NCBI RefSeq assembly: GCF_003332305.1
Contig: NZ_QOIO01000029.1
Location: 1 to 64,000 of the forward strand
Length of the DNA: 64,000 nt
Direction of reading: 5' to 3'
Source: Microvirga aerophila
GTDB taxonomy: Bacteria; Pseudomonadota; Alphaproteobacteria; Rhizobiales; Beijerinckiaceae
The notes under the pieces were generated by a model. The model saw only the letters and a program-made list of their open reading frames with translations. It did no database searches and was not told where the DNA came from. A program made the translations under genes and the position numbers. Positions 47,308 to 61,080 of this stretch are shown here, piece after piece; position 1 is the stretch's first letter; the number at the start of each line of letters is the position of its first letter.

Positions 47308-49095
47308 ATGGCCGATACCGTCGCAGATTTCATCTGGCAGCGTTTGCAGGAATGGGGCGTACGCCGTGTCTACGGCTATCCGGGAGATGGGATCGGCGGT
47401 TTGATCGCGGCACTTGCGAGGACCGAGGGCGCGGTCGACTTCGTCCAGGTGCGGCATGAGGAAATGGCGGGCTTGATGGCCTGCGCAGACGCGAAGTTCA
47501 CCGGTGACATGGGCATCTGCATCGCAACCTCCGGGCCCGGCGCGATTCACCTTTTGAACGGCCTCTACGACGCGAAATTGGACCACCAGCCTGTTCTGGC
47601 GCTCGTCGGCCAGCAGGCGCGCACGGCCATCGGCTCGCATTACCAGCAGGACCTCGACCTCCAGTCCCTCTTCAAGGACGTGGCCGGCGCTTACGTGGAG
47701 ACCGCTGTCGCGCCGGCCCAGGTCCGGCATCTGATCGACCGGGCCTACCGAATCGCGAAAGCGGAGCGTCGCGTCACGTGCGTGATCCTGCCGAACGATC
47801 TCCAGGTTGCGCCGATGGAGCAGCCGACGCACGAGCATGCCATGACCCATTCGGGGACCGGTATAGAAATGTCGCCCGTCGTTCCCGACCCGAGCGCCTT
47901 AGCCCGGGCTGCCGAGGTGCTGAATGCGGGGGAGAGGGTCGCTCTCCTGGTGGGCGCTGGCGCGCTTAGGGCCACGGATGAGGTCATCGCCGTGGCGGAA
48001 CGGCTTGGCGCTGGGGTCGCCAAGGCGCTTCTAGGCAAAGCCGCCGTCCCGGACGACCTATCGTTCTGCACGGGTTCGATCGGCCTTCTGGGTACAAAGG
48101 CCAGCTGGGACCTCATGCAAGACTGCGACACGCTCCTTATGGTTGGTTCGGGCTTTCCCTATGCGGAATTCCTGCCGAAGGAAGGCCAAGCCCGAGGTGT
48201 GCAGATCGATCGTGACGCTGGCATGTTGGGACTGCGCTACCCAACGGAGGTCAACCTTGTCGGCGATTCCGCCGCGACGCTGGCAGCGCTTCTGCTGCTG
48301 CTCGACGAAAAGCCGGATCGGTCGTGGCGTGAAACGATCGAGGCCAGCGTTGTTTCCTCGCGGGAGCAAATCCACGGCATGGCGATGGCCGAGGCCGATC
48401 CGATCAACCCACAGCGGGTCGTATTGGAGCTCTCACAGCGTTTGCCGGACCGATCCATCGTCACGGCCGACAGCGGCACTACGTCGGTCTGGTATGCGCG
48501 CAATCTCAGCTTCAGGCGGGGAATGATGGGCTCCGTCTCGGGAACTCTCGCCACCATGGGATGCGCGGTTCCTTATGCCATTGCGGCGAAGTTCGCCTAT
48601 CCCGAGCGTCCGGTGATTGCTCTCGTCGGCGACGGCGCCATGCAGATGAACGGCTTGGCGGAACTCATTACGATTGCGAAATACTGGCGACGGTGGGCGG
48701 ATCCACGTCTGATCGTGATGGCGCTGAACAACCGCGACCTTGCCTATGTCACCTGGGAGGAGCGCGTTCAGGCGGGCGACCCGAAATGGGAGGCCTCGCA
48801 GACGCTTCCTGACGTACCCTATGCGGAGTTTGCCAAATCCATCGGTCTTGCGGGCCGTCGGGTTGAGGATCCGGAGCAGGTCGGTCGGGCCTGGGACGAG
48901 GCCCTTGCGGCGGACCGACCTTTCGTACTCGATATGGTGACGGATCCCAATGTGTCCCCGATCCCACCTCATATCACGCTGAAGCAGGCGCGACACTTCA
49001 TGGGCGCACTCGTCAAGGGTGACGCGGAGGCTCGCAACGTGCTCGTCGATACCGCCCGTGGCCTTATCGGATCGATCGTGCCTTCGAGGGAGTGA
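47308..49095 (+). CDS. Thiamine diphosphate enzyme (pyruvate oxidase/acetolactate synthase-like)
   Basis: A 595-residue ThDP-dependent enzyme with the three-domain layout of pyruvate oxidases and acetolactate synthases. The catalytic Glu is in VRHEEMAGLMA (E51), and the ThDP motif is GDGAMQMNGLAELITIAKYW ending in the NN pair of MALNNRD. CAGGAG precedes the ATG at 47308. The nearest described enzymes are PoxB-like, decarboxylating pyruvate, but 2-oxoacid specificity cannot be read here. It stands next to an SDR gene with about 150 nt between them. Confidence 0.85.
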   Translation: MADTVADFIWQRLQEWGVRRVYGYPGDGIGGLIAALARTEGAVDFVQVRHEEMAGLMACADAKFTGDMGICIATSGPGAIHLLNGLYDAKLDHQPVLALVGQQARTAIGSHYQQDLDLQSLFKDVAGAYVETAVAPAQVRHLIDRAYRIAKAERRVTCVILPNDLQVAPMEQPTHEHAMTHSGTGIEMSPVVPDPSALARAAEVLNAGERVALLVGAGALRATDEVIAVAERLGAGVAKALLGKAAVPDDLSFCTGSIGLLGTKASWDLMQDCDTLLMVGSGFPYAEFLPKEGQARGVQIDRDAGMLGLRYPTEVNLVGDSAATLAALLLLLDEKPDRSWRETIEASVVSSREQIHGMAMAEADPINPQRVVLELSQRLPDRSIVTADSGTTSVWYARNLSFRRGMMGSVSGTLATMGCAVPYAIAAKFAYPERPVIALVGDGAMQMNGLAELITIAKYWRRWADPRLIVMALNNRDLAYVTWEERVQAGDPKWEASQTLPDVPYAEFAKSIGLAGRRVEDPEQVGRAWDEALAADRPFVLDMVTDPNVSPIPPHITLKQARHFMGALVKGDAEARNVLVDTARGLIGSIVPSRE

Positions 49096-49246
49096 CGTCC
49101 CGCCAGGGTTCGCTGGCCTCGAGCGTGCGGCCCATGGGGTGGAACTCACTAACTGGGCCGTTCTTATATCTAGGCACTGTCGTTCCAAACGTACCGAAGA
49201 GCCCGATGTGATTGACAATTTTCATGATGAAAACCGGGCTGACGCG

Positions 49247-50329
49247 ATGGCGCACCAGACACCGCCGGCATCCCGGGCGACCAGTCCTGTGGTCGTCATC
49301 ACAGGGGCGTCCGCGGGCGTCGGGCGCGCCGTAGCGGTGGCGTTCGGCCGGGATGGCTGGCACGTGGCCCTCATCGCCCGCGGGCGCGGGCGCCTTGCGA
49401 GCGCGGCTCGCGAGGTCGAAAAAGCGGGCGGCAAAGCTCTGGTCATCGCGGCTGATGTAGCGGATGCCGACGCCATGGAGGCTGCGGCCGACCAAGTGGT
49501 CGGCGTATGGGGACGCATCGATGTCTGGATCAACAACGCAATGGCGTCGGTCTTCGGCCCAGCCAGCGCGTTGAACTCTGACGAAATCCGCCGTGTCACC
49601 GAAGTGACCTATCTCGGGCAGGTCCACGGAACACTAGCGGCCCTGCGTCATATGCAGAAGACGGGCGAAGGAACCATCGTCCAAATCGGGTCGGCGCTGA
49701 GCTATCGGTCGATCCCGCTGCAGTCGGCCTATTGCGCGGCGAAATTCGCCGTGCGCGGGTTCACGGATTCGCTGCGCAGCGAATTACAGCACGAAGGCAG
49801 CCGGATCAGACTTACCATGGTGCAGCTTCCTGCCGTGGACACCCCTCAGTTTGATTGGGTGCGCAGTCATCTGCCCAAGGAATTACAGCCCGTTCCTCCG
49901 ATCCACGAGCCCGAGGCTGTGGCGGAGGCAATCGTGCGGGCTGCCCGGAACGCCCCCCGCGAGATGTGGGTCGGCAGTCCCACGATTCAGGCGATCCTCG
50001 GAACAATGGTTGCGCCGAGACTCCTGGACCGCATGATGGCGCGCCGGGCTTGGGAGGGGCAGATGACCGGAAAGCCAGCGCGGCCTCGCGAGGGTAACCT
50101 GTTCGATGCGCCTCCTGGCGATCCGGGAGTCGGCGGCCGGTTCGGCCCATGCTCCCGCAAGCGCGTAATGGCAGTTTCCGAAACGGCTGCGCGCGGGATC
50201 CTGGCCGCGGTTGCGCTCGGCTGCGTGGCGGGCGCCGTCGCTGCAGGGTGGAGACTGGGTACGAGAAGCACCTCGTCGGGGGATCGCCGCTTGGCCGCTC
50301 GGGAACGCGCCGCGCGCATGATCATCTAA
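49247..50329 (+). CDS. Short-chain dehydrogenase/reductase with C-terminal extension
   Basis: A 360-residue SDR. The N-terminal NAD(P)-binding motif is VVITGASAGVGRAVAVAFG, NNAMASV stands at the NNAG position, and the active-site Tyr-x3-Lys is YCAAK. The 100 residues after the Rossmann core are variable and end in a hydrophobic segment (GILAAVALGCVAGAVAAGW) that may anchor it to the membrane. The start is uncertain: ATG at 49247 or GTG at 49208. The substrate is unknown. Confidence 0.8.
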   Translation: MAHQTPPASRATSPVVVITGASAGVGRAVAVAFGRDGWHVALIARGRGRLASAAREVEKAGGKALVIAADVADADAMEAAADQVVGVWGRIDVWINNAMASVFGPASALNSDEIRRVTEVTYLGQVHGTLAALRHMQKTGEGTIVQIGSALSYRSIPLQSAYCAAKFAVRGFTDSLRSELQHEGSRIRLTMVQLPAVDTPQFDWVRSHLPKELQPVPPIHEPEAVAEAIVRAARNAPREMWVGSPTIQAILGTMVAPRLLDRMMARRAWEGQMTGKPARPREGNLFDAPPGDPGVGGRFGPCSRKRVMAVSETAARGILAAVALGCVAGAVAAGWRLGTRSTSSGDRRLAARERAARMII

Positions 50330-50403
50330 ACCATATTGAGGTGCTTGAGAGCGAGCAGGTGGTGGACCTGCCAGCGGACGCATCTGCGGTCTGAAGACTT
50401 ATT

Positions 50404-50430
50404 GCTTGTTCGGCTTTACGCGAAACAAGC
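50404..50430. terminator. Imperfect hairpin between convergent genes
   Basis: GCTTGTT-CG and CG-AAACAAGC form a stem with one bulge, between the SDR and the LysR-type gene. T-rich and A-rich flanks on either side allow weak termination in both directions. Confidence 0.4.
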
Positions 50431-50462
50431 TAGTATAAGAGGCTCCATTCCTGCTCAGGATC

Positions 50463-51410
50463 TCAGGCAGAGCAGGCAAGTGTAATAGAGGCTTCTTGGT
50501 GGCAGTTGAGCAGTTGCTTGCGAAACAGCGCGACGGCAGGCGAGGGGGAGCGGCTTCGCTCGATCACGACAGAGAACGGGGCACGATAGATCAGTTCCGT
50601 AGCGCCCTTCACCTCACGGAAGGCGCTCAGCCGCGGAAGTCCAGCCACGTAGTGGGTCGGGAGAAAGGCCGCATAGCCACCACTTGCGAGAAGTGTCGCA
50701 ACCGATTCGAGGCCGGATGCTACAGCAGTGTGCTCGACCCCAAGCCGTTTCGCTAGCGCGAGGCTATGACGATCCTGCTCGCGCACGATCAAGGATGCCT
50801 TGCCGGCAGCGACATCTTTGAGGTCCAGTTCCTCCTCGCCCTCCATAGGGCCTGCGTATAGGCGGAACTCCTCGATGAACAATTCCTCGTATTCGAAGTG
50901 GCTGTCGCCGACGGGCGCGCCGGTGATACCGATGTGGATATGGCGGGACAGAAGGTCATCGAGCAGTTCGCGGGGCGGACGGACTCGAACATCCAACGTG
51001 ACGTCAGGCGCGAGAGATCTGAATTGCCTGATGGCTGGAACAAGCCGGGTCTGCGGATTGGTGATGCAATTATCGGCAATGCCAACGCGCACTTCTCCGA
51101 CAATCACGTTCCTGGCGAAGTTCAATTCGTTGCGAACTGCCTCCAAGGTGTCGCATGCAGCGATCGACGCCCGCAATGCAACGCGGCCGAATTCCGTGAG
51201 CTCGAAGCCCGAGGGGCCCCGGTGACACAAGCGCGCGCCCAAGCGCGCTTCAAGGGATTGGATATGTCGACTGATCGTCGAGCGCTCCATCCGCAGTTTT
51301 GTTTCCGCAGCGGTCAGTCCGCCTGCTTCGGCTACAGCTCTAAAAATACCTAATAATCGTAGATCACCCTCCGTAAATGACGGGATTGCAGAAACTTCAG
51401 AACGTATCAT
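50463..51410 (-). CDS. LysR family regulator of the ureohydrolase operon
   Basis: A regulator of about 315 residues with an N-terminal winged HTH (LGIFRAVAEAGGLTAAETKL, then ISRHIQSLEARLGARL) and a two-lobe effector domain. It is divergent from the ureohydrolase operon, the classic arrangement for LysR control. I chose the ATG at 51410; a start at 51461 is possible but would put the perfect inverted repeat 51423-51452 inside the gene. The effector is probably the guanidino compound or amino acid handled by the operon. Confidence 0.85.
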   Translation of the reverse strand: MIRSEVSAIPSFTEGDLRLLGIFRAVAEAGGLTAAETKLRMERSTISRHIQSLEARLGARLCHRGPSGFELTEFGRVALRASIAACDTLEAVRNELNFARNVIVGEVRVGIADNCITNPQTRLVPAIRQFRSLAPDVTLDVRVRPPRELLDDLLSRHIHIGITGAPVGDSHFEYEELFIEEFRLYAGPMEGEEELDLKDVAAGKASLIVREQDRHSLALAKRLGVEHTAVASGLESVATLLASGGYAAFLPTHYVAGLPRLSAFREVKGATELIYRAPFSVVIERSRSPSPAVALFRKQLLNCHQEASITLACSA

Positions 51411-51422
51411 GTTGCGTGCTCT

Positions 51423-51452
51423 ACAAGTATGCGTGTACTCTGGCATACTTGT
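51423..51452. promoter_or_regulatory. Perfect inverted repeat, candidate LysR operator
   Basis: ACAAGTATGC (51423-51432) and GCATACTTGT (51443-51452) are exact reverse complements with a 10-nt spacer. They lie just before the regulator start and about 115 nt before the ureohydrolase start. LysR proteins bind such dyads in the gap between their own gene and the target. A second, shorter dyad, TGCAC-N7-GTGCA, lies near 51527-51543. Confidence 0.65.
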
Positions 51453-51565
51453 GAGTGACAATGAATTGCATAGAATTCTTATATGTCTAAATGATGTGCA
51501 TATTGAATACGCTGTTTAGGCATCCTGCACGATGATTGTGCACTAGGATTATTCAAGGGGTATCG

Positions 51566-52573
51566 ATGTCCTTGCCGCTAACGGTCCCGCCGAGGGCCGG
51601 TCACCAGAGCTTCCTCTACTCGCCAGTCGTCACGGATCTCGACGCGCTTGAGGCCGATGTCGCAATCCTCGGCATTCCATATGGCAGCGCCTACGAGCCG
51701 CATGCGATCGCGAACGATCAGATCAAGGCTCCGGATGCTGTCCGCGCTGTAACGGATCGGATCAGCCGGGGGCTTGAGCGCTACGATTTCGACGTAGGCG
51801 GCACGATCTATGGCGACCGCGACCTGAAGGTCGTCGATGTCGGGAACGTCCCGTTCGATATTCATGACCGGAGCAGCCATTACAGGCGGGCCGAGGAAGC
51901 GGTCCGAAAGATCCTGGCCGCCGGCGCGATGCCAATCACGATCGGCGGCGACCACGGCATCCCGATTCCTATCCTGCGCGCCTTCGAAGGCCGCGGACCC
52001 ATCACGCTGATCCAAGTGGATGCGCATATCGATTGGCGCGATCACGTGAACGGCGTCTATGACGGCCTTTCAAGTCCGATCCGCCGGGCCTCCGAGATGG
52101 ACCATATCGGCGACATCTTCCAGATCGGCATCAGGTCCCAGGGAAGCGCCCGTCCCGAGGAGGTGGAGGCTGCGCTTGCCTACGGCGCAAACATCATCCC
52201 GGCTTTCGAGGTCCACGATGGCGGTATCGACGCCGTGTTGGCTCGCATTCCCGATGGGGGGCAGTACTACATCACCATCGACGCCGACGGCCTGGACCCA
52301 TCCGTCATGCCGGCCGTGGAGGGGCCTGCTCCCGGAGGTCTGACGTTCCATCAGGTCCGCCGTCTCATCCACGGGCTGGTCGGTAAGGGGCGGGTGCTCG
52401 GCATGGATATCGTCGAGATCACGCCGTCGTTCGACGTGAACAACATCACCAGCATCACAGCCGGGAGACTTATGGTGAATCTCATCGGATCAGCCGTTCG
52501 AGCTGGCTATTTCGACGCTTCTTCAACTGAACGCCGTCTCGCTCCAGAAACCACGAGGTTGTGCAATGTCTAA
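51566..52573 (+). CDS. Ureohydrolase (agmatinase/arginase family), first copy
   Basis: A 335-residue binuclear metal hydrolase that releases urea from a guanidino compound. All metal ligands are visible: H130 in GGDHG, D152/H154/D156 in VDAHIDWRD, D239 and D241 in TIDADGLDP. The segment YDGLSSPIRRASEM is unlike classic arginases and near to guanidinobutyrase-like proteins. AAGGGG lies 5 nt before the ATG. It leads an operon with an amino acid importer and a second ureohydrolase. Agmatine, guanidinobutyrate or another guanidino acid are candidate substrates; the sequence does not decide. Confidence 0.87.
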   Translation: MSLPLTVPPRAGHQSFLYSPVVTDLDALEADVAILGIPYGSAYEPHAIANDQIKAPDAVRAVTDRISRGLERYDFDVGGTIYGDRDLKVVDVGNVPFDIHDRSSHYRRAEEAVRKILAAGAMPITIGGDHGIPIPILRAFEGRGPITLIQVDAHIDWRDHVNGVYDGLSSPIRRASEMDHIGDIFQIGIRSQGSARPEEVEAALAYGANIIPAFEVHDGGIDAVLARIPDGGQYYITIDADGLDPSVMPAVEGPAPGGLTFHQVRRLIHGLVGKGRVLGMDIVEITPSFDVNNITSITAGRLMVNLIGSAVRAGYFDASSTERRLAPETTRLCNV

Positions 52574-53420
52574 TATCGATCGCAGGCAATTCGGCCTTCT
52601 GGCGGGAGGCGCAGCGCTGGGCCTATTCGCGCCGCGCCCCGCCTTTGCCGAAACGACCCTTGAAAAGATCAGGCGCACGGGCGTGCTCAGGGTCGGCACC
52701 GAGGCGGCCTTCCCGCCCTTTGAGTTCGTCAAGGATGGCAAGATCGTCGGCTACGGCAAGGACATCCTCGATGAGGTCGTGGCCGCGCTCGGCGTCAAGC
52801 TCGAACAACTCGACCTGCCGTGGCAAGGCATCCTGCCGGGCATCCTGGCGGGCAAGTTCGATCTCGTAGCAACTACCGTCGGCATCAACGAGGAGCGCGC
52901 AAAGCGCTACGCGTACACCCTGCCCATCGCCGATGGGGTGCCCTATGCGGCAAAGCGCAAGGGCGAAGCGATGAAGAGCATGGCAGATCTCAACGGCAAG
53001 GTCGTCGCCACGCAACTTGCCTCCTCGACCGAACCGGTCGCCAAGGCCGTCGACGCCAAGCTCAAGGCGGATGGCGGGAAGGGGTTTGCGGACCTCAAGC
53101 TTTATACGGCCTTCACGGAGAGTTACGTGGCACTGGCGAACGGGGAGGTCGACGCCGTGATCCAGTCCCTCCCGAGTCTTGCGGTGCTCGTCAAGGAGCG
53201 TCCGGAGACCTTCGAGCTTCTCGCACCGATGACTGCAGGCGCGAACTACACCTACCTGTCATGGGTCACGCGTCCGAACGATCTGGATCTGCGGGACTTC
53301 GTATCCGGCGTGATCCGCACCATGCGCGACGACGGCCGGCTGGGCAAGCTGCAAGACAAGTGGTTCGGATTCCAGATGAAAATTCCGGAAACCGGCTACC
53401 TGCCCCCGGGTTCGTTCTAA
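52566..53420 (+). CDS. Polar amino acid ABC transporter substrate-binding protein
   Basis: A 284-residue SBP_bac_3 family protein. The signal DRRQFGLLAGGAALGLFA has twin arginines and cleavage near PAFAE. The mature start VLRVGTEAAFPPFEFVKDGK is typical of binding proteins for polar amino acids and opines. It overlaps the ureohydrolase by 8 nt. Given its neighbours it probably binds a guanidino compound or a related cationic amino acid. Confidence 0.88.
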   Translation: MSNIDRRQFGLLAGGAALGLFAPRPAFAETTLEKIRRTGVLRVGTEAAFPPFEFVKDGKIVGYGKDILDEVVAALGVKLEQLDLPWQGILPGILAGKFDLVATTVGINEERAKRYAYTLPIADGVPYAAKRKGEAMKSMADLNGKVVATQLASSTEPVAKAVDAKLKADGGKGFADLKLYTAFTESYVALANGEVDAVIQSLPSLAVLVKERPETFELLAPMTAGANYTYLSWVTRPNDLDLRDFVSGVIRTMRDDGRLGKLQDKWFGFQMKIPETGYLPPGSF

Positions 53421-53446
53421 TTGGGACTGGAAGGATCTCGAGGGCG

Positions 53447-54106
53447 ATGGTTTTCCAGACTGCTCATCTCATTTCGGTGATGCCGAACCTGTCGGCCGCC
53501 GCCCTCGTCAACCTCCGCCTCGCGTTGATCATCATCGCGATCGCCCTGATCCTCGGCACGGCGCTCACGATCCTCCGGTCACTCAAGATCGCTCCCGTGA
53601 ATGCGGTGATCGACGTGCTGATCAGCTTCATCCGCGGAACGCCGCTGCTGGTCCAGATCTTCATCTTCTACTACGCTTTGCCGAATGCCGGGTTGGATTT
53701 GAGCGCCGAGGTCGCCGGAGTGCTGGCCATCTCGTTCAACAGCGCGGTCTTCGTCAGCGAGATCATGCGCGGCAGCCTTCCAACGATCGATCCTGGACAG
53801 ATCGAGGCCGCCACGGCGCTGGGATTGCGTCGCCACGTGATCTGGCTGCGGGTGATCCTGCCCCAGCTCTTTCGTCGAACCCTCCCGGTCCTCATCAACG
53901 AGTCCACCATCGTCGTGAAGGGCACGGCGCTGCTCTCGGTCATCACGGTGGTGGATGTCCTGCGCACCGCCCAGCAGATCGCCAGCTCTACCTTCCGTCC
54001 CTTCGAGACCCTCGTAGGCGCGGCCATCGTCTTCCTCGTCATCAATCTGGCAGTGAGCTTCGTGGGCATGACCCTCGAGGCACGCCTCGCCGCAAGGCGG
54101 ATGTAA
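53447..54106 (+). CDS. Amino acid ABC transporter permease 1
   Basis: A 219-residue HisM/GlnP-type permease with about five membrane segments. The loop that contacts the ATPase is EAATALGLRRHVIWLRVILP, and FIRGTPLLVQIFIFYYALP is a family hallmark. ATG at 53447 follows GAGGGCG. It forms a channel with the second permease, which begins 4 nt after its stop. Confidence 0.9.
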   Translation: MVFQTAHLISVMPNLSAAALVNLRLALIIIAIALILGTALTILRSLKIAPVNAVIDVLISFIRGTPLLVQIFIFYYALPNAGLDLSAEVAGVLAISFNSAVFVSEIMRGSLPTIDPGQIEAATALGLRRHVIWLRVILPQLFRRTLPVLINESTIVVKGTALLSVITVVDVLRTAQQIASSTFRPFETLVGAAIVFLVINLAVSFVGMTLEARLAARRM

Positions 54107-54110
54107 GCCT

Positions 54111-54833
54111 ATGGGTTTCGACGTCTCGGTCTTCACCACCTATTGGCCCCTGTTTCTTCAAGGCGCGCTCCTGACGATCCGGGTTTGCTTGGCGGCCTTC
54201 GTGGTTGGCTTCGCGCTCGGCACTGTGCTCGCGCTCCTTGCGCTTGTGCCCCTACGGCCGCTGCGGTTCCTGATCGGTGTATATCTTGCAGTGCTGCGGG
54301 GCATCCCGTTCATCATCATCCTGTTCCTGGTGCATTACGGCCTGCCTTTTGCAGGCGTCCGCCTCCCGGCCGTCTTCACCGGCACCATCGCTCTCTCCCT
54401 GTTCGCCAGCGCCTATTTCGCCGAGATTGTAAGAGCTGCCATCGTCGCTCTGCCGAAGGGACAGTTCGAATCCGCGAGAGCGATCGGCATGTCGCCCGGG
54501 CAGGCCATGCGCTACGTGGTGGCTCCACAGATCCTTCGTCCTCTCGTGCCGCCTTCCACCAACATGACGCTCACGATGATCAAGGAATCGTCCGTCCTGA
54601 GCTCCATCACAGTGGCGGAGCTGACCTATCAGGGGTTGGTGGTGCAGGGGAACACCTTCGCGCCCTTCGAGGTCTTCGCCGTGGTGGCCGGCGTATACTG
54701 GATTATCTCCATCGCCGTGGCGCGGGCCGCAACTCTGCTTGAGCGCAAGGCCGGCGGAGCGCAGTCCAAGGCTGTCACCCGCAACAGCCTTGCGGACAGC
54801 TTCCTTTCCCTCGAACGACGGCCCGCATCATGA
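54111..54833 (+). CDS. Amino acid ABC transporter permease 2
   Basis: A 240-residue permease of the same family, with LRGIPFIIILFLVHYGLPF and the EAA-type loop FESARAIGMSPGQAMRYVVA. Its stop overlaps the ATG of the ATPase by 4 nt. Two different permeases, one binding protein and one ATPase make a complete importer. Confidence 0.9.
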   Translation: MGFDVSVFTTYWPLFLQGALLTIRVCLAAFVVGFALGTVLALLALVPLRPLRFLIGVYLAVLRGIPFIIILFLVHYGLPFAGVRLPAVFTGTIALSLFASAYFAEIVRAAIVALPKGQFESARAIGMSPGQAMRYVVAPQILRPLVPPSTNMTLTMIKESSVLSSITVAELTYQGLVVQGNTFAPFEVFAVVAGVYWIISIAVARAATLLERKAGGAQSKAVTRNSLADSFLSLERRPAS

Positions 54834-55648
54834 GCGACATACCGGTTCTGTCGGTCTCCGCCCTCGTGAAGCGGTTCGGCCGAACGTCGGCCCTGGAACA
54901 GATTTATCTCGACATCCATCGCGGCGAGGTGGTCGCACTCACCGGCCCGAGCGGCTGCGGGAAGAGCACGTTGCTGCGCTGCCTAACCTGGCTCGAACAG
55001 CCTGACGACGGCTTCATTGCTATCGAAGGGAAACCATTCGGGCGCGAGGTGAACCCCGGCGGAGCTGTCCGCCGCCACAGTGGCCGGCAGATCGACACCA
55101 TGCGCCCGCGGATCGGCATGGTGTTCCAGCAACTTCATCTCTGGCCACACCTCAGCGCCCTCGACAACATTGCGCGCCCGCAGGTCGTGGTGCTTGGTCG
55201 GGCGCCCGAGGAAGCGGCCCGTCGAGGCAGGGCTCTGCTGGAACGGCTGGGTCTTGCCGACAAGGCCTCGTCCTTCCCTCATGAGTTGTCCGGCGGTCAA
55301 CGCCAGCGAGTCGCCATCGCCAGGGCGCTTGCCATGGACCCGGCCCTGATGCTGTTCGACGAGCCGACATCGGCTCTCGATCCCGAATTGGTCGGCGAGG
55401 TGCTCGAACTCCTGAGGGATCTCGCCCGGGGCGGCATGACCATGCTGGTCGTCACCCACGAAATCGGCTTCGCGGCCAAAGTGGCGGACCGCATCGCGTT
55501 CATGGATGGCGGCCGCATCGTCGAGGACGGCCCGGCCCAGCAGGTGCTGAACCAGGCTTCCAGCCTGCGCGCGAGGGCGTTCTTCGATCTCGTCATGTCC
55601 CCGGGGCGCGCCGGCGCCGGCGCGCAATCATCATCCACAAAGGAGTAG
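54830..55648 (+). CDS. Amino acid ABC transporter ATPase
   Basis: A 272-residue GlnQ/HisP-type ATPase. Walker A is GPSGCGKSTLLRCL, the signature is ELSGGQRQRVAIARALA and Walker B is LMLFDEPTSALDPE. An insertion of about 25 residues between Walker A and the Q-loop (GREVNPGGAVRRHSGRQI) is usual in this subfamily. It ends 3 nt before the second ureohydrolase, so transport and catabolism genes share one transcript. Confidence 0.92.
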   Translation: MSDIPVLSVSALVKRFGRTSALEQIYLDIHRGEVVALTGPSGCGKSTLLRCLTWLEQPDDGFIAIEGKPFGREVNPGGAVRRHSGRQIDTMRPRIGMVFQQLHLWPHLSALDNIARPQVVVLGRAPEEAARRGRALLERLGLADKASSFPHELSGGQRQRVAIARALAMDPALMLFDEPTSALDPELVGEVLELLRDLARGGMTMLVVTHEIGFAAKVADRIAFMDGGRIVEDGPAQQVLNQASSLRARAFFDLVMSPGRAGAGAQSSSTKE

Positions 55649-55651
55649 AAT

Positions 55652-56620
55652 ATGGACCGCGTGGACCGACCCTATGTCGGTATTCCGTCTTTCCTGCGCA
55701 CGCCGATCTGCGCCGATCTGTCCGATCTCGATGCCGATGTGGCCATTCTGGGCGTGCCGTTCGACGAAGGCTCCCCGTTCCTGCCGGGCAGCCGCATGGG
55801 GCCGCGGGCCCTGCGGGAGCATTCCCTCCGGTTCAGCCCCAGGGGCGTCTATGATCCCGAAACCGGCAACGAATACTTGGCAGCAGAACTGACAGGCGGT
55901 CTCATCGCCGATGTGGGCGATGTGGATATCCGCCCTACCAACACCGAGGCGACGTTCGAGAACATCACAGCTTCCGTGCGCGCCATTCTCGAGCGAGGAG
56001 CCATGCCCGTGGTTCTCGGAGGCGATCATTCGATCACCTATCCGATCTTCCGAGCATTCGACCGCCCGGTCCACGTGATCCAGTTCGACGCCCATTGCGA
56101 CTATGGCTCATTCGAGCACGGGCTGCGCTATACCAATGGGCATGCCTTCCGGCACGTGGCCGCGATGGAAACCGCCCTCAGCCTTACGCAGGTCGGCATC
56201 AGAAGCCTGCGCAACAGCAAGGATCAGATCGACGAGATTCGGGCGGACGGCAATCGCGTCATCCCGATGGGCCAGTTCCGCAGTCTCGGTCCGTCAGGGA
56301 TCGCGGAGCTGCTTCCCCCCGGGTCTCCAGTTTATGTGAGCATCGACGTCGATGCCCTCGACATGTCCCTCGTGCCGGGCTGCGTCTCCGCCGAGCCGGA
56401 TGGCATGTCCTATCCCGAGCTGCGGGACAGCCTGCGGGCGATCGCGGAGCGGCATGAGATCATCGGCTTCGACTTCGTGGAGGTAAACCCGCCCCTCGAC
56501 GTGGGGACGGGCGTCACTGCCTATCTGGGAGCGCTCGTCGTGATCGAGTTTCTGGGGCATATTTGTAATCAACCTCGCTGGATCGAACGCCGCGAGAACC
56601 GTCGCGTAGCGGCGAGGTGA
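55652..56620 (+). CDS. Ureohydrolase (agmatinase/arginase family), second copy
   Basis: A 322-residue ureohydrolase with complete metal ligands: H126 in GGDHS, D146/H148/D150 in FDAHCDYG, D232 and D234 in SIDVDALD. The usual DP after DALD is replaced by M (DALDMSLVPG). It differs strongly from the copy at 51566, so it probably acts on a different guanidino intermediate or forms mixed oligomers. AAAGGAG lies before the ATG. The first DUF1989 gene follows after 7 nt. Confidence 0.87.
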   Translation: MDRVDRPYVGIPSFLRTPICADLSDLDADVAILGVPFDEGSPFLPGSRMGPRALREHSLRFSPRGVYDPETGNEYLAAELTGGLIADVGDVDIRPTNTEATFENITASVRAILERGAMPVVLGGDHSITYPIFRAFDRPVHVIQFDAHCDYGSFEHGLRYTNGHAFRHVAAMETALSLTQVGIRSLRNSKDQIDEIRADGNRVIPMGQFRSLGPSGIAELLPPGSPVYVSIDVDALDMSLVPGCVSAEPDGMSYPELRDSLRAIAERHEIIGFDFVEVNPPLDVGTGVTAYLGALVVIEFLGHICNQPRWIERRENRRVAAR

Positions 56621-56627
56621 GAACGCT

Positions 56628-57248
56628 ATGACGATTAATTGCGATGAGGTCATTCCCGCCCGGCACGGCAAGGCTATCAGACTGCGGAAGGGTGAGGCGG
56701 TGGCCGTGGTCAATACCCACGGCACTCAGGTTGTGGATACCTGGGCGTTCTGCGTGGAGGATCCGGCCCATTATATGTCCATGGAGCATACCCGCGTGGA
56801 GAACGGGCGGCTGATGCCGGCGGTAGGCCACATGCTCTTCACCAACCAGCGCGAGCCGATCCTCGTCCTTGAAGAGGACCGCTCGCCGGGGATTCACGAC
56901 ACCATCATGGCCGCATGCGACCGGTGGCGCTACGAACGCCTCGGCTGCCAGGAGTACCATCGGAACTGCGCCGACAATCTGGTCGAGGCGATGGCTGAAC
57001 TCGGCGTCGCAGTCACCGAGATCCCCGCGCCCCTGAATCTTTTCATGAACATTCCGGTCGGCCAGGACATGAGCCTGACGCAAGGAACACCGCTCGGGCA
57101 GCCTGGCGATCACGTGGTGCTGCGCGCGCAGCGTGATTGCATCGTTGCGTTCTCCGCCTGCCCTCAGGACATAACCCCGATCAACGGCCGCATGCCTACC
57201 GACGCGCATCTGCGGCTCTTCCCCCTCACCATAGGAGCTGACGCATGA
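56628..57248 (+). CDS. DUF1989 protein (CgdA/CgdB, urea amidolyase-associated type), first copy
   Basis: A 206-residue DUF1989 protein. Members once called urea amidolyase-associated proteins include the two subunits of carboxyguanidine deiminase (CgdAB) of the guanidine carboxylase pathway. Conserved features are INCDEVIPARHGKAIRLRKG, NTHGTQVVDTWAF, MSMEHTRVENGR and the probable metal-binding GCQEYHRNCADNL. It overlaps the next DUF1989 gene by 4 nt. No guanidine carboxylase or allophanate hydrolase is in view, so the substrate here may differ. Confidence 0.83.
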   Translation: MTINCDEVIPARHGKAIRLRKGEAVAVVNTHGTQVVDTWAFCVEDPAHYMSMEHTRVENGRLMPAVGHMLFTNQREPILVLEEDRSPGIHDTIMAACDRWRYERLGCQEYHRNCADNLVEAMAELGVAVTEIPAPLNLFMNIPVGQDMSLTQGTPLGQPGDHVVLRAQRDCIVAFSACPQDITPINGRMPTDAHLRLFPLTIGADA

Positions 57249-57857
57249 CCGAAACGAATCTCGAAACCCTTCCGGCGCGCAGCGGCCGCGCCGCGCGGCT
57301 CAAGGCCGGCCAAGCCATCAAGGTCATCAACACGCACGGCCAAGCAGGTGGTGGATTTTTGGGCCTTCAATGCGGAGGACATGCGTGAGTTCATGTCCAT
57401 GGAGCATCTGCGTCCCACCATCGGCACCATCAGGCCGACCGCAGGACACAAGCTTGTCACCAATCGACGCCGGCCTATCCTCCTCTTTGAGGAAGACACG
57501 TCTCCGGGCGTGCACGACACCCTTATGGCCGCCTGCGACAACTACCGTTACGGGTTGCTTGGATGCACCCATTACCACGACAACTGCACGGACAACCTTT
57601 TCGCCGGTATGGCGCGCCTAGGCCTGACGCCCCCTGAATGCCCGAGCCCGCTCAATCTATGGATGAATATTCCGGTTCATCCGGACGGCGCTACGGAATG
57701 GGGCGTCCCGGCTTCGAAGCCGGGGGACTATGTGGTGTTGCGGGCGGTCATGGATTGCGTGGTCGCCATGTCGGCCTGCCCTCAAGACATCCTGCCGATC
57801 AACGGGCAGAATCTGAATCCGACGGTAGCGCACTATATGGTGCTGGATGCGGCGTGA
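57245..57857 (+). pseudogene. DUF1989 protein, second copy, with a one-base frameshift
   Basis: The gene starts with an ATG coupled to the first copy (ATGA) and reads MTETNLETLPARSGRAAR to NTHGQ at 57343. Then the frame must shift by +1: the sister gene has NTHGTQVVD, and here the bases CAAG (57341-57344) sit where three are expected before CAG-GTG-GTG-GAT. From 57345 a normal DUF1989 body runs to the TGA at 57857, with FMSMEHLRPTIGTI and GCTHYHDNCTDNL. Everything else is well kept, so this is a recent mutation, a sequencing error or, less likely, programmed shifting. CgdA/CgdB act as a pair, so loss of one copy would matter. Confidence 0.75.
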
Positions 57858-57881
57858 AGCATCGCGTCGACTTTTGCCCGT

Positions 57882-59561
57882 TTATTCGACGGAGCTCTGA
57901 TGAGGGCGTCCCGCTTCGGGCAGGTGCACGACGTTGTCGCGTGATTGCGCGGCTTCGAGAAGTTCAGCGATGCGGGACGCCAGCTCTGCCTGCCGAAACG
58001 GCTTGGCCAGCCGCGGCAACTCGGCCCCGGGCCCTTGGACCAGATTGGTGTAGCCGGTGATGAGAAGGGCCGGGAGGGCCGGACGGAGCTTGCGCGCCTC
58101 CCGCACCATATCGGCTCCGCCCATTCCGGGCATCAGGTAATCGCTTACGAGAAGATCGACTTCGATCTCGCCCCGGCGCAGGAGGCCGAGCGCCTCCGCG
58201 CCGGAACTGGCCTGGACCACGGAGTAACCGAGATCCATCAGCATTTCGGCGGTGCCGATCCGCACCAGCTCCTCGTCATCGACGAGCAGTACGGTCGACG
58301 GCCGCGCTGCCGGAATGGCCTCGATCTGCGTTTGCTCGCTTGCCGCCGCCTTCTCGTCGGCCACAGGAAGCCAAAGCTCGGCCCGGGTTCCGACCCCTGG
58401 TTTGCTCGACAGCAGGAGCGCTCCGCCTGACTGCGCCGCAAGCCCGTGCACCATCGATAGGCCAAGGCCGGTGCCTTTGCCCACGCCCTTGGTGGAGAAG
58501 AACGGCTCGATGGCGCGCTTCAAGGTAGCGGCATCCATCCCCACGCCCGTATCGACGACGGATATGCAGACGTATTCGCCTACTTTCAAAGCGTCCCGGG
58601 GCTTGGACCGGATCGATTCCTGTCTGATCTCTATGGTCAACCGACCTCCCCCCGGCATGGCGTCCCGCGCATTGATGGCGAGGTTCAGCACGGCGAGTTC
58701 CAGCTGACTTGGATCCACCCGAGCCGCCGGCAGGCTTTGCGGTGACTTCAGGCTGACCGCGATGGTTGGCCCGATGGAACGGGTCACGAGATCCTCGATG
58801 CCGGCGAGAAGTCCCGATACATCCACGGCTTTCGGCTGAAGATCCTGACGACGGGCGAAGGCCAGCAGGCGCTGCACCAGGGTAGCGGCCCGGCTGGTTG
58901 CCTGCAGGGCGTTTTCGACCAGCCGCTGCGATCGCGCATCGTCAGCCGCTATGCGTCGGCGCAGCAAATCGAGGTTGCCCATCACCGGGGTGAGCAGGTT
59001 GTTGAAGTCGTGGGCGACACCGCCGGTCAGCTGCCCAATGGTTTCCAGCTTCTGGGCCTCGTGAAGCTGGGCCAGCGCTTCCTCACGCTCGCGGGTGCGT
59101 TCGAGAACAAGGCGCTCGAGTTCCTCGCGGGACCGGGCGAGAACATCACGGGCTTCGTATTGGCGGCGGCGTGCATTCAGGGCGGACCGCACCGCCCGGA
59201 CCATGCTCTCGGCATGTAGGGGGCGCTCCAGCAGCACCACGTTCCGCAGGCGGTCGAGGGTTTCGAAGGCCCGTGTGGAGCGGACGCCCTTGTGGCCGTT
59301 GGCCAGGACGACGAACGGGAAATCGGACCAGGGTGGTTGCTGCTCCAGCCGCGCCGCGAGAAGGTCGAGATCCGCGCTGGCAAGGGCCTCCTCTGCAACC
59401 AGCGCGGCGCCCGCGCCCTGTTCTACGGCGCTGGAAAGGGCATTCAGATGCTCGCAGATAAGCGCCGGAATGCCATGACGATTCAGCAGATCAGCGGCAA
59501 CCGCCGCGTCCCGGCCGTGGGGTGTCAGGATGAGAACGGTCTTATCCATTGCCGATGCCAT
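57882..59561 (-). CDS. Hybrid sensor histidine kinase with degenerate receiver
   Basis: A protein of about 559 residues. Residues 1-130 form a receiver-like domain lacking the phospho-accepting Asp (LVAEEALASADLDLL), then a coiled linker, a HisKA domain with the phospho-His in GQLTGGVAHDFNN (about 184), a HATPase domain with NARDAMPGGG and DTGVGM, and a C-terminal true receiver (LLVDDEELVRI, Asp in LLVSDYLMPGMGG, about 474). It has no membrane segment. It overlaps the end of the KaiC-like gene by 20 nt if it starts at 59561; starts at 59549 and a TTG at 59576 are possible. It is probably the output partner of the KaiC-like protein. Confidence 0.87.
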   Translation of the reverse strand: MASAMDKTVLILTPHGRDAAVAADLLNRHGIPALICEHLNALSSAVEQGAGAALVAEEALASADLDLLAARLEQQPPWSDFPFVVLANGHKGVRSTRAFETLDRLRNVVLLERPLHAESMVRAVRSALNARRRQYEARDVLARSREELERLVLERTREREEALAQLHEAQKLETIGQLTGGVAHDFNNLLTPVMGNLDLLRRRIAADDARSQRLVENALQATSRAATLVQRLLAFARRQDLQPKAVDVSGLLAGIEDLVTRSIGPTIAVSLKSPQSLPAARVDPSQLELAVLNLAINARDAMPGGGRLTIEIRQESIRSKPRDALKVGEYVCISVVDTGVGMDAATLKRAIEPFFSTKGVGKGTGLGLSMVHGLAAQSGGALLLSSKPGVGTRAELWLPVADEKAAASEQTQIEAIPAARPSTVLLVDDEELVRIGTAEMLMDLGYSVVQASSGAEALGLLRRGEIEVDLLVSDYLMPGMGGADMVREARKLRPALPALLITGYTNLVQGPGAELPRLAKPFRQAELASRIAELLEAAQSRDNVVHLPEAGRPHQSSVE

Positions 59562-61080
59562 CGCTGCCTTCGCCAAGGGCGTGGGCGGCGGCTTCTGACT
59601 GCATAAGCGGGGCGGAGCCGCCGCTATAGGTGGGGGCTCCGGTCAGGATGCCCTGGAAGTCCCGCAACGGAGCCCCGATGCTCAGGCCGTTGGCATCGAC
59701 CCGGAACTCGCGGATGGTGCGCTCATGATCGGTGGTGCGGGTCTTTACCACCGAGATTGCCTTGCGCACCTCGCCCTTGGCCTCGAAGAAACGGAGGAGC
59801 AGGACGGTGTCGGCAAGATAGCTCAGATCGACGTCCGAGCGTATGTCGCCAACCAAGCCATGTTGTCCCAGGATCATAAGAGTGAAAACCCCCTGCTGGC
59901 CAAGATAGGACAGGAGCTCGTGCATCTGCAGGGTGAGATGCCGGTCTTCGGGCATTGCTTGCAGATAGGCATTCAGGCTGTCGACCACGACAACTTTTGC
60001 GCCGTCTCTTTCCACAGCGTCGCGAACGGCGATCGCGAACTCGCCGGGAGAGAGTTCAGCCGGATCTATCTGGCGAATGTTGAGGTGTCCGGAATCGATA
60101 TAGGATTGCAGGTCCATGCCAAGAGCTTCGGACCGAAGCATCAGGGTCGGCAGCCGTTCGTCGAAGAGAAAAAAGGCGGCTCTCTCGCCTTGTTCGAGAG
60201 CGGACACCATGCAGCGCACGGCGGCTGTCGTCTTCCCTACGCCCGCAGGCCCGCTCAAAAGGGTTGTCGTACCGGGAACGAGCCCGCCCCCAAGCAGGGC
60301 GTCCAAGCCGTCGACGCCGGTCCCAAGCATACGACTCGTCACTGTACCGGGATGGTCTGCCGCTATCAGGCGGGGATAGATGCAGACGCCGCCTGTCACG
60401 ATAGCCATGTCGTGGTAGCCGCCGCTGTACTTGATCCCCCGCATTTTGATGACGCGGAGGCGGCGGCGCTCGGCTCCGAACCCCGTAGGGGTCTGATCGA
60501 GGGAGATGACACCATGGGCAATGCTGTGCAGCTGGAGGTCCCCAGGCTCGCCGGTACGGTCGTCCAATACCAGCACCGTGCAGTCGCGGCTCGAGAAGAA
60601 GTGCTTCAGCGCAAGGATTTGCCGCCGGTAGCGCAAGGGGTTCTGCGCGAGCAGCCGCAGCTCGGACAGGCTGTCGAGCACGACGCGCTTGGGCTTGAGC
60701 GCTTCGACCCGCTCCATGACGCCGCGGACGGTTTCGCCGAGCTCCACCTCCGACGGATGTAGAAGCGTTTGCTCCAGTTCTGGATCGAGGCCGGCCTCAG
60801 GCACGAGTTCGAACAGCTCCAGCCCGTCGAGTTCCCAGCCATGGGCTCGCGCGACGGCCCGCAACTCGCCTTCCGTCTCGGACAGGGTGACATAGAGCCC
60901 AGGCTCACCCCGTCGGGCGCCTTCGAGGAGGAACTGGAGCGAGAAGGTGGTTTTGCCGGTGCCGGGGGTGCCTTCGACAAGATAGAGGCGATTGGCGGTG
61001 ACGCCGCCCCCAAGGATATCGTCAAGCCCTTCGATCCCTGTAGGAATTCGCGAAGCTTCCGCAAAGTCAGGAGTTTTCAT
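59542..61080 (-). CDS. KaiC-like double RecA ATPase
   Basis: A 512-residue protein with two KaiC domains. Walker A motifs are GTPGTGKT (37-44) and GPAGVGKT (277-284). Candidate catalytic acids are E68 and E70 in LSETEGE and D307-E308 in LFDERLP. At the position of the cyanobacterial phosphorylation pair S431-T432 it has S420-Y421 (VDLSYLADTVLLL). No kaiA or kaiB is present. Kinase-linked KaiC homologues in alphaproteobacteria have been tied to stress and daily timing. The gene overlaps the kinase gene, and an EcfG-type promoter lies 112 nt upstream. Confidence 0.88.
   Translation of the reverse strand: MKTPDFAEASRIPTGIEGLDDILGGGVTANRLYLVEGTPGTGKTTFSLQFLLEGARRGEPGLYVTLSETEGELRAVARAHGWELDGLELFELVPEAGLDPELEQTLLHPSEVELGETVRGVMERVEALKPKRVVLDSLSELRLLAQNPLRYRRQILALKHFFSSRDCTVLVLDDRTGEPGDLQLHSIAHGVISLDQTPTGFGAERRRLRVIKMRGIKYSGGYHDMAIVTGGVCIYPRLIAADHPGTVTSRMLGTGVDGLDALLGGGLVPGTTTLLSGPAGVGKTTAAVRCMVSALEQGERAAFFLFDERLPTLMLRSEALGMDLQSYIDSGHLNIRQIDPAELSPGEFAIAVRDAVERDGAKVVVVDSLNAYLQAMPEDRHLTLQMHELLSYLGQQGVFTLMILGQHGLVGDIRSDVDLSYLADTVLLLRFFEAKGEVRKAISVVKTRTTDHERTIREFRVDANGLSIGAPLRDFQGILTGAPTYSGGSAPLMQSEAAAHALGEGSDGIGNG

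Follow-up and report, generated by a model that had tools for sequence, protein, structure and literature searches.

Which compound is imported and broken down by an operon that joins two unlike ureohydrolases to a complete polar amino acid importer and to proteins of the DUF1989 family? The question is raised by a locus of Microvirga aerophila (assembly GCF_003332305.1, contig NZ_QOIO01000029.1), in a stretch of 64,000 nucleotides (positions 1 to 64,000 of the contig) from the 6.0 Mb genome, and this whole stretch is referred to here as the window. A LysR-type regulator gene on the reverse strand is followed on the forward strand by genes for ureohydrolase 1, a periplasmic binding protein, two permeases, an ATPase, ureohydrolase 2, DUF1989-a, and DUF1989-b, with spacing between operon genes that ranges from an 8-base overlap to a 26-base gap. 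An earlier note, made from the letters of the sequence alone, had listed these genes as a tightly packed unit; their order and close packing are confirmed gene by gene, but the second DUF1989 gene is not intact. The locus is read here as a putative LysR-controlled operon for the uptake and breakdown of guanidino (N-amidino) carboxylic acids, a predicted substrate class, and we hold this reading with about as much confidence as doubt.

A conserved, real operon links the two unlike ureohydrolases and the importer. Genome contigs were scanned with four ureohydrolase 2 sequences, which gave 197 relatives, and the best 80 were kept as loci. With ureohydrolase 1 counted at an identity of at least 50% within flanks of up to 10 kb, it lies near ureohydrolase 2 in 33 of the 80 loci, and both ureohydrolases together with all four importer genes occur in 28, a favorable outcome of the search for conserved synteny that the earlier note had proposed. 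The complete operons span Bradyrhizobium, Bosea, Chelatococcus, Ancylobacter, Methylobacterium, Aurantimonadaceae, Azospirillaceae, Rhodobacterales, a metagenome-assembled genome of Enterobacterales, and others, and the gene order of the window is also found on three annotated plasmids, of which one has no DUF1989. In 27 of the 28 complete operons, the importer genes set the two ureohydrolases about 4.1 kb apart. Other arrangements include adjacent ureohydrolases (L091, L104, and L144), ureohydrolases about 4 kb apart on opposite strands (L102), both ureohydrolases with a distant importer (L136), and loosely linked ureohydrolases (7.8 kb; L127). On a quick tree of ureohydrolase 2, the presence of ureohydrolase 1 requires at least five gains or losses, and this repeated gain and loss, along with the other arrangements, points to a functional link rather than to one inherited block. 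At 83% and 78% identity, the operon on the contig of L069 is no more distant than the nearest alphaproteobacterial operons; the label of this contig, Mycobacterium sp. KBS0706, looks doubtful. In an even sample of 385 genomes of the class, the genome of the window included, ureohydrolase 1 (E up to 1e-105) is found in nine and ureohydrolase 2 (E up to 1e-85) in six. A close ureohydrolase 1 was not found in any of the 36 congeners searched (best 46% identity), which makes the occurrence of the operon sporadic, and it was perhaps acquired.

The importer fits the polar amino acid type of ATP-binding cassette system, with a family-3 periplasmic binding protein (PF00497; 52566-53420), two permeases (PF00528, with TIGR01726 over its cut-off in both; 53447-54106 and 54111-54833), and an ATPase (PF00005; 54830-55648), all on the forward strand. 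Binding proteins with an identity of at least 50% were compared from the 28 complete loci, the window, the three plasmids, and L093, giving 33 in total. Arg111, which we take to be the carboxylate-binding residue, is kept in all 33, and position 201, at which we presume an Asp to bind the alpha-amino group, holds Ser in 27 (among them Ser201 of the window), Pro in four, Asn in two, and Asp in none, while all five solved relatives printed carry Asp there. Since the Arg is kept and the Asp is lost, the ligand of the importer would be a carboxylate lacking a free alpha-amino group. Eight binding proteins that stand beside other ureohydrolase or DUF1989 operons were also compared, and position 201 is Ser in that of the same genome (contig C110) and in those of Mesorhizobium, Caballeronia, and Klebsiella, Gly in Aminobacter, Paracoccus, and Ewingella, and Asp in Palleronia.

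The two ureohydrolases (ureohydrolase 1, 51566-52573; ureohydrolase 2, 55652-56620; both on the forward strand) match PF00491 with 201 and 229 bits (cut-off 22) and are 30% identical to each other. The six ligands of both metals (GGDH, DAHxD, and DxD) are invariant in 38 of 38 rows of ureohydrolase 1 and 84 of 84 rows of ureohydrolase 2, and both of the window's proteins have them all. The catalytic Glu is present in every row of ureohydrolase 1 (38 of 38) and in all but one of ureohydrolase 2 (83 of 84). In a tree of 63 chosen rows, with 20 of the 80 loci, they form two separate clades (25 rows, 100/100, and 23 rows, 100/99), neither of which takes in any of six reference enzymes, among them Escherichia coli agmatinase, GbuA, and GpuA; the Deinococcus radiodurans agmatinase 1WOG is a weakly supported sister of ureohydrolase 2. 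Structure models (predicted local distance difference test scores of 85.4 and 86.1) confirm the fold, with specificity loops of low confidence at 161-168 and 156-162, and a fold search returned 1WOG as the best solved structure match of both (30% and 39% identity), with guanidinases also among the best matches.

Plain agmatinases served by a polyamine or agmatine importer are an unlikely explanation of the operon. Plasmid records call ureohydrolase 1 an agmatinase, and 1WOG is itself one, but both proteins remain under the equivalog cut-off of TIGR01230 (148.5 and 144.4 bits vs. 174.3), the E. coli agmatinase, GbuA, and GpuA lie outside both clades, and the binding protein keeps a carboxylate Arg that agmatine would not need. 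In favor of the guanidino-acid reading, a ureohydrolase annotated as agmatinase was shown to be a guanidino-acid hydrolase (PMC9772407). It is likewise improbable that the enzymes are HutG-like and hydrolyze N-formimidoyl amino acids to formamide and an amino acid. The neighbors of ureohydrolase 1 in Azospirillum include HutF (650 bits, cut-off 525) and an ArgE-type deacylase; in Aminobacter, it adjoins aspartase with asparaginase two genes on, and in 38 of 38 rows it carries the motif DAHxDWR with R158, which we take to be HutG-like; ureohydrolase 2 scores nearly equally on the hutG and agmatinase profiles (137.0 and 144.4 bits). Both nevertheless fall short of the cut-off of the formimidoylglutamase HutG profile TIGR01227 (92.3 for ureohydrolase 1 and the same 137.0 for ureohydrolase 2 vs. 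229.15 bits), hut or imidazole genes are absent from the operon of the window, and DUF1989 has no known role in a formimidoyl route.

Ureohydrolase 1 occurs beside an importer without ureohydrolase 2 in Aminobacter, Ewingella, and Paracoccus. The converse, an importer beside ureohydrolase 2 but no ureohydrolase 1, is seen in eight of the 80 loci, and four of these (L101, L119, L124, and L129) have room for the missing gene. Because each occurs without the other and both metal sites are intact, an obligate heteromer is disfavored, and the two are probably separate enzymes. That the two form one heteromer, as alpha and beta do in metformin or dimethylguanidine hydrolase, is thus quite unlikely, although heteromers are known among ureohydrolases (PMC11399263 and PMC11271267), and here two unlike ureohydrolases are linked and, in three loci, adjacent. 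The known beta subunits have lost the metal site, whereas every metal ligand is invariant in both proteins here, and in nearly all complete operons the importer genes stand between them.

For the products of hydrolysis, the genome of the window holds a urease alpha subunit, whereas urea carboxylase, guanidine carboxylase, and allophanate hydrolase did not exceed the curated cut-offs of TIGR02712 and TIGR02713 anywhere in the genome, with only weaker matches to related families, so that the absence of a carboxylase and an allophanate hydrolase remarked from the window's operon extends to the whole genome at these cut-offs. Asparaginase lies in the ureohydrolase 1 operons of Aminobacter (L053, 8023-11218) and Paracoccus (L064, 8835-9833), and aspartase in that of Aminobacter, hinting at an aspartate-like product there. 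The neighbors of ureohydrolase 2 (amidases, amidohydrolases, isochorismatase, TauD, a methyltransferase, a uracil-DNA-glycosylase-like protein, and others) include none recurrent enough to name a substrate, and IlvD, which adjoins ureohydrolase 1 in two genomes, was taken as unrelated. In Winslowiella, a D-amino-acid transaminase (355 bits, cut-off 320) directly follows ureohydrolase 2, which, along with the altered alpha-amino site of the binding protein, would suit a D-amino or unusual guanidino amino acid as ligand, such as D-arginine, split into urea and a D-amino acid that is then transaminated. This is very unlikely, since Winslowiella is the only locus over the cut-off, its binding protein is only 27-28% identical to that of the window, and other loci carry other transaminase classes or none.

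The DUF1989 proteins match PF09347 with 154 and 132 bits (cut-off 27) and are 58% identical over 166 residues. DUF1989-a (56628-57248, forward strand) holds the residues C97, C114, C178, H111, and D181. DUF1989-b (57245-57857, forward strand) starts with an ATG at 57245 that overlaps the stop of DUF1989-a and is family-like up to INTHG, where its frame departs and stops; the remainder is found in a different frame, whose listed start is a GTG at 57348, within the conserved core. The gene is therefore interrupted in this assembly by a frameshift between 57245 and 57348, with assembly error and real lesion indistinguishable here. The zinc site (three cysteines with a His and an Asp) is kept in what is intact of both proteins.

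The earlier note had compared this pair to the subunits of carboxyguanidine deiminase, CgdAB, and that comparison is not supported. Neither TIGR03424 nor TIGR03425 (UAAP1 and UAAP2) is reached, the best scores being 102.3 vs. 284.7 and 57.9 vs. 205.95 bits. All rows labelled DUF1989 in the 80 loci were compared, and a tree was built from chosen rows of 14 of these loci, two plasmids (L050 and L051), and references, with UAAP1 and UAAP2 rows (over cut-off in two relatives) as stand-ins for CgdAB rather than proven CgdAB sequences. The UAAP rows form one clade (11 rows, 7 distinct, 100/99), which takes in three UAAP2-like rows that fall under the cut-off; both UAAP2 and these UAAP2-like rows have the cysteines but no His or Asp, and UAAP1 has lost cysteines. 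DUF1989-a and DUF1989-b stand in different subclades of a separate clade (29 rows, 100/99). A CgdAB pair is rejected on the profile scores, the separate clade, and the presence of the His and Asp that UAAP2 lacks. Nor is a pair the conserved state: with copies counted on the same strand within 5 kb, 14 of the 28 complete operons hold one DUF1989 gene, three hold two, and three hold four, so that 22 hold one or none. Four DUF1989 genes in a row behind ureohydrolase 2 are found in three loci of Aurantimonadaceae (L078, L081, and L084, at about 11.0-13.7 kb), where two genes of the window's clade flank a divergent pair, one member of which is without the zinc cysteines, a CgdAB-like pattern outside the UAAP clade.

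Across species, four subclades of the window's DUF1989 clade stand behind ureohydrolase 2, and two of them alternate in first place: the first gene belongs either to the subclade of DUF1989-a or to a subclade of Bosea, Methylobacterium, and others, and two further subclades appear as later genes. This looks like repeated recruitment of DUF1989 behind ureohydrolase 2. Elsewhere, the same clade occurs in operons with an M20 carbamoylase and a cupin, to which Caballeronia adds an agmatinase-like gene, and in still others with an amidase and a polysaccharide-deacetylase homologue. The carbamoylase next to the DUF1989 relative on a Klebsiella plasmid scores 369 bits on TIGR01879 (cut-off 204), a profile applied in Klebsiella alone. 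A carbamoylase beside a DUF1989 relative fits the need of a guanidino-to-ureido step, and a deiminase acting in that direction would be the simplest common role of DUF1989. The Klebsiella cassette of importer, M20 carbamoylase, DUF1989, and cupin (L058, 1679-7242) lies between IS3-family elements, Klebsiella accounts for 19 of the 134 plasmid records with a match to DUF1989-a, and a Caballeronia plasmid (L060) holds the same cassette set along with the agmatinase-like gene. A wider proposal, tentative and with the balance leaning against it, is that the stand-alone DUF1989 clade is an unrecognized guanidino-acid deiminase, that one operon combines hydrolase and deiminase routes, and that the two ureohydrolase clades have new specificity.

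Guanidinase GdmH is marked by a Trp (305 in Synechocystis, 313 in Nitrospira inopinata) and a Thr (97 and 105, respectively), according to PMC11410670. The Trp is absent here: its position is S246 in 84 of 84 rows of ureohydrolase 2 (direct alignment) and Gly (34), Thr (2), or Ala (2) in the 38 rows of ureohydrolase 1, with G253 in the window (read via 1WOG); the Thr position in ureohydrolase 2 is Ser or Pro. A route in which guanidine is degraded by a guanidinase together with a carboxyguanidine deiminase of the CgdAB type shares the superfamilies and, through the fold matches, a resemblance to guanidinases, but is highly improbable given the replaced Trp, the position of DUF1989 outside UAAP1 and UAAP2, the lack of guanidine carboxylase and allophanate hydrolase over cut-off, and the lack of any Rfam match, and hence of a guanidine riboswitch, in window positions 49000-59000 and in the 7 of the 80 loci searched.

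In the preferred reading of a guanidino-acid operon, the binding protein would recognize a carboxylate but have no alpha-amino clamp of the usual kind. The two ureohydrolases would be separate dinuclear-metal hydrolases, each presumably active alone and each releasing urea and an amino acid from a guanidino acid, and they may differ in substrate or act on two guanidino groups in turn. Urea would pass to the urease of the genome, while central metabolism or, in some species, a linked aminotransferase would receive the amino acid. DUF1989 would be an accessory, exchangeable zinc enzyme, most likely a deiminase converting guanidino to ureido groups on the same or a related compound. A catabolic route for an imported guanidino compound, as the earlier note had supposed, is consistent with the conserved operon, in which the ureohydrolases are linked to each other and to the importer and DUF1989 is present in 20 of the 28 complete cases. 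As for its further suggestion that the enzymes act in series, parallel action on related substrates is as likely, because either ureohydrolase is found without the other beside an importer.

Several points weigh against the guanidino-acid reading. Keeping the best 80 of 197 relatives over-represents close relatives and complete operons, and of the 47 loci that lack ureohydrolase 1, 29 had enough flanking sequence for it to have been seen. Both ureohydrolases occur in only 3 of the 385 sampled genomes, that of the window included, and one of the three has the genes on different contigs. DUF1989 is missing from 8 of the 28 complete operons. The argument from the binding protein depends on residue roles that we presume for Arg111 and for Asp at position 201. 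The position of GbuA H168, which we take to be the arginase-type catalytic His called essential in human arginase (PMC9772407), is occupied in ureohydrolase 1 by Leu (34 rows) or Tyr (4 rows) and in ureohydrolase 2 always by Asn (84 of 84), and 1WOG also lacks a His there. The replacement of this His in both ureohydrolases means that efficient guanidino hydrolysis is not assured. The link to aminotransferases is suggestive only. Where the gene right behind ureohydrolase 2 is not of the window's own families, it is an aminotransferase of one of three Pfam classes in 5 of 38 cases (L082, L104, L120, L130, and L136); this set of 38 leaves out L141 (unlabelled) and takes in L114 (weak ATPase match), and several of its open reading frames have no profile match and may be spurious. 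No aminotransferase appears among the displayed families of 41 control genes lying 4 to 9 kb beyond, a control that shows 25 of 54 families and uses 41 of the 61 genes generated; the comparison came only after aminotransferases had caught attention at these loci, and two of the five, L120 and L130, are closely related.

The regulator gene, divergent from the operon, extends over 50463-51413 on the reverse strand from an ATG (to 51461 from a TTG), with PF00126 and PF03466 over cut-off, and of the 28 complete operons, 27 have a LysR match (35-53% identity) upstream, with 26 of these matches in divergent orientation. The perfect dyad reported in the earlier note is present as the operator-like inverted repeat ACAAGTATGC-N10-GCATACTTGT (51423-51452), with 10-base arms at 51423-51432 and 51443-51452 that are 100% complementary and 10 bases apart; its sequence is absent from the other upstream regions printed for comparison, and its function is putative. 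A TGC-N11-GCA dyad at 51526-51542, 40 bases before ureohydrolase 1, is a possible second LysR site. Such a dyad occurs at -75 to -18 in 12 of 34 upstream regions, a count that overstates independence because several of these regions are close relatives, and 1000 base shuffles gave a mean of 0.4 and a maximum of 4.

Beyond the operon, a sensor kinase gene and a KaiC-like gene (57882-61080, by eye) lie downstream in the window, and the same pair, at 41.7% and 58.6% identity, also comes after ureohydrolase 1 in a genome of another family of the same order (G040, L047, 13135-16333). On the other side, a pyruvate-oxidase-like thiamine diphosphate enzyme (47308-49095) and then a short-chain dehydrogenase (49019-50329) were recognized by eye. 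The same genome holds a second guanidino-type island (G000:C110:26900-51300; L042 and L043) that comprises three ureohydrolases and a polar amino acid importer accompanied by a DUF1989 of its own. Sequence starts, judged by eye, add to it an alanine dehydrogenase, a homologue of polysaccharide deacetylase, an M20 hydrolase, and a protein resembling amidinotransferases.

If correct, the guanidino-acid reading would give substrates to two ureohydrolase clades that go under "agmatinase" or "arginase family protein" in public records, as well as to a DUF1989 clade that is called "urea carboxylase-associated" although its operons have no urea carboxylase. The reading also points to a guanidino-acid nitrogen-scavenging route across a wide range of Proteobacteria and a testable system for the diversification of DUF1989 chemistry, in a family whose chemistry is largely unknown. 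The earlier note knew of no described pathway with this gene set, and none was found among the matches listed in the open-licence literature on DUF1989, ureohydrolases, guanidinoacetate, and guanidinosuccinate, nor any open-licence paper that brings urea carboxylase-associated proteins together with agmatinase, and none of the listed matches joins such proteins to a ureohydrolase.

Among known systems, the guanidine carboxylase pathway (Gca, CgdAB, and AtzF) resembles the locus in that a DUF1989 protein adjoins an importer with a periplasmic binding protein, but it differs in its carboxylase and allophanate hydrolase, in the DUF1989 clade and active-site set, and in its pair of DUF1989 genes, where half of the complete operons here have a single one. 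Metformin and dimethylguanidine hydrolase (MefH and DmgH) also have two unlike ureohydrolase genes in one operon; there, one subunit has a degenerate metal site and the genes are adjacent and associated with HypA/HypB (PMC11399263), whereas here both proteins keep the metal site, the genes are usually not adjacent, either can occur without the other, and HypA/HypB are absent among the nine operon genes, the rest of the genome not having been searched for Hyp genes. The DUF1989 domain of trimethylamine N-oxide demethylase (Tdm) holds C263, C279, C343, H276, and D346 (PMC12560246), and these zinc cysteines with the His and Asp are matched by motif in both DUF1989 proteins of the window, which differ in standing alone, without a GcvT domain (110 bits vs. 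a cut-off of 1100). The D. radiodurans agmatinase 1WOG is alike as the nearest solved structure and in having no arginase-type His, and differs in the modest identities given above. Compared with the guanidino-acid ureohydrolases GbuA, GpuA, and human GDAH/AGMAT, the window's enzymes lie in separate clades, have the catalytic His replaced, and occur as two enzymes in one operon with an importer, but they share with them the PF00491 fold, the metal ligands, the catalytic Glu, and, probably, guanidino carboxylates as substrates.

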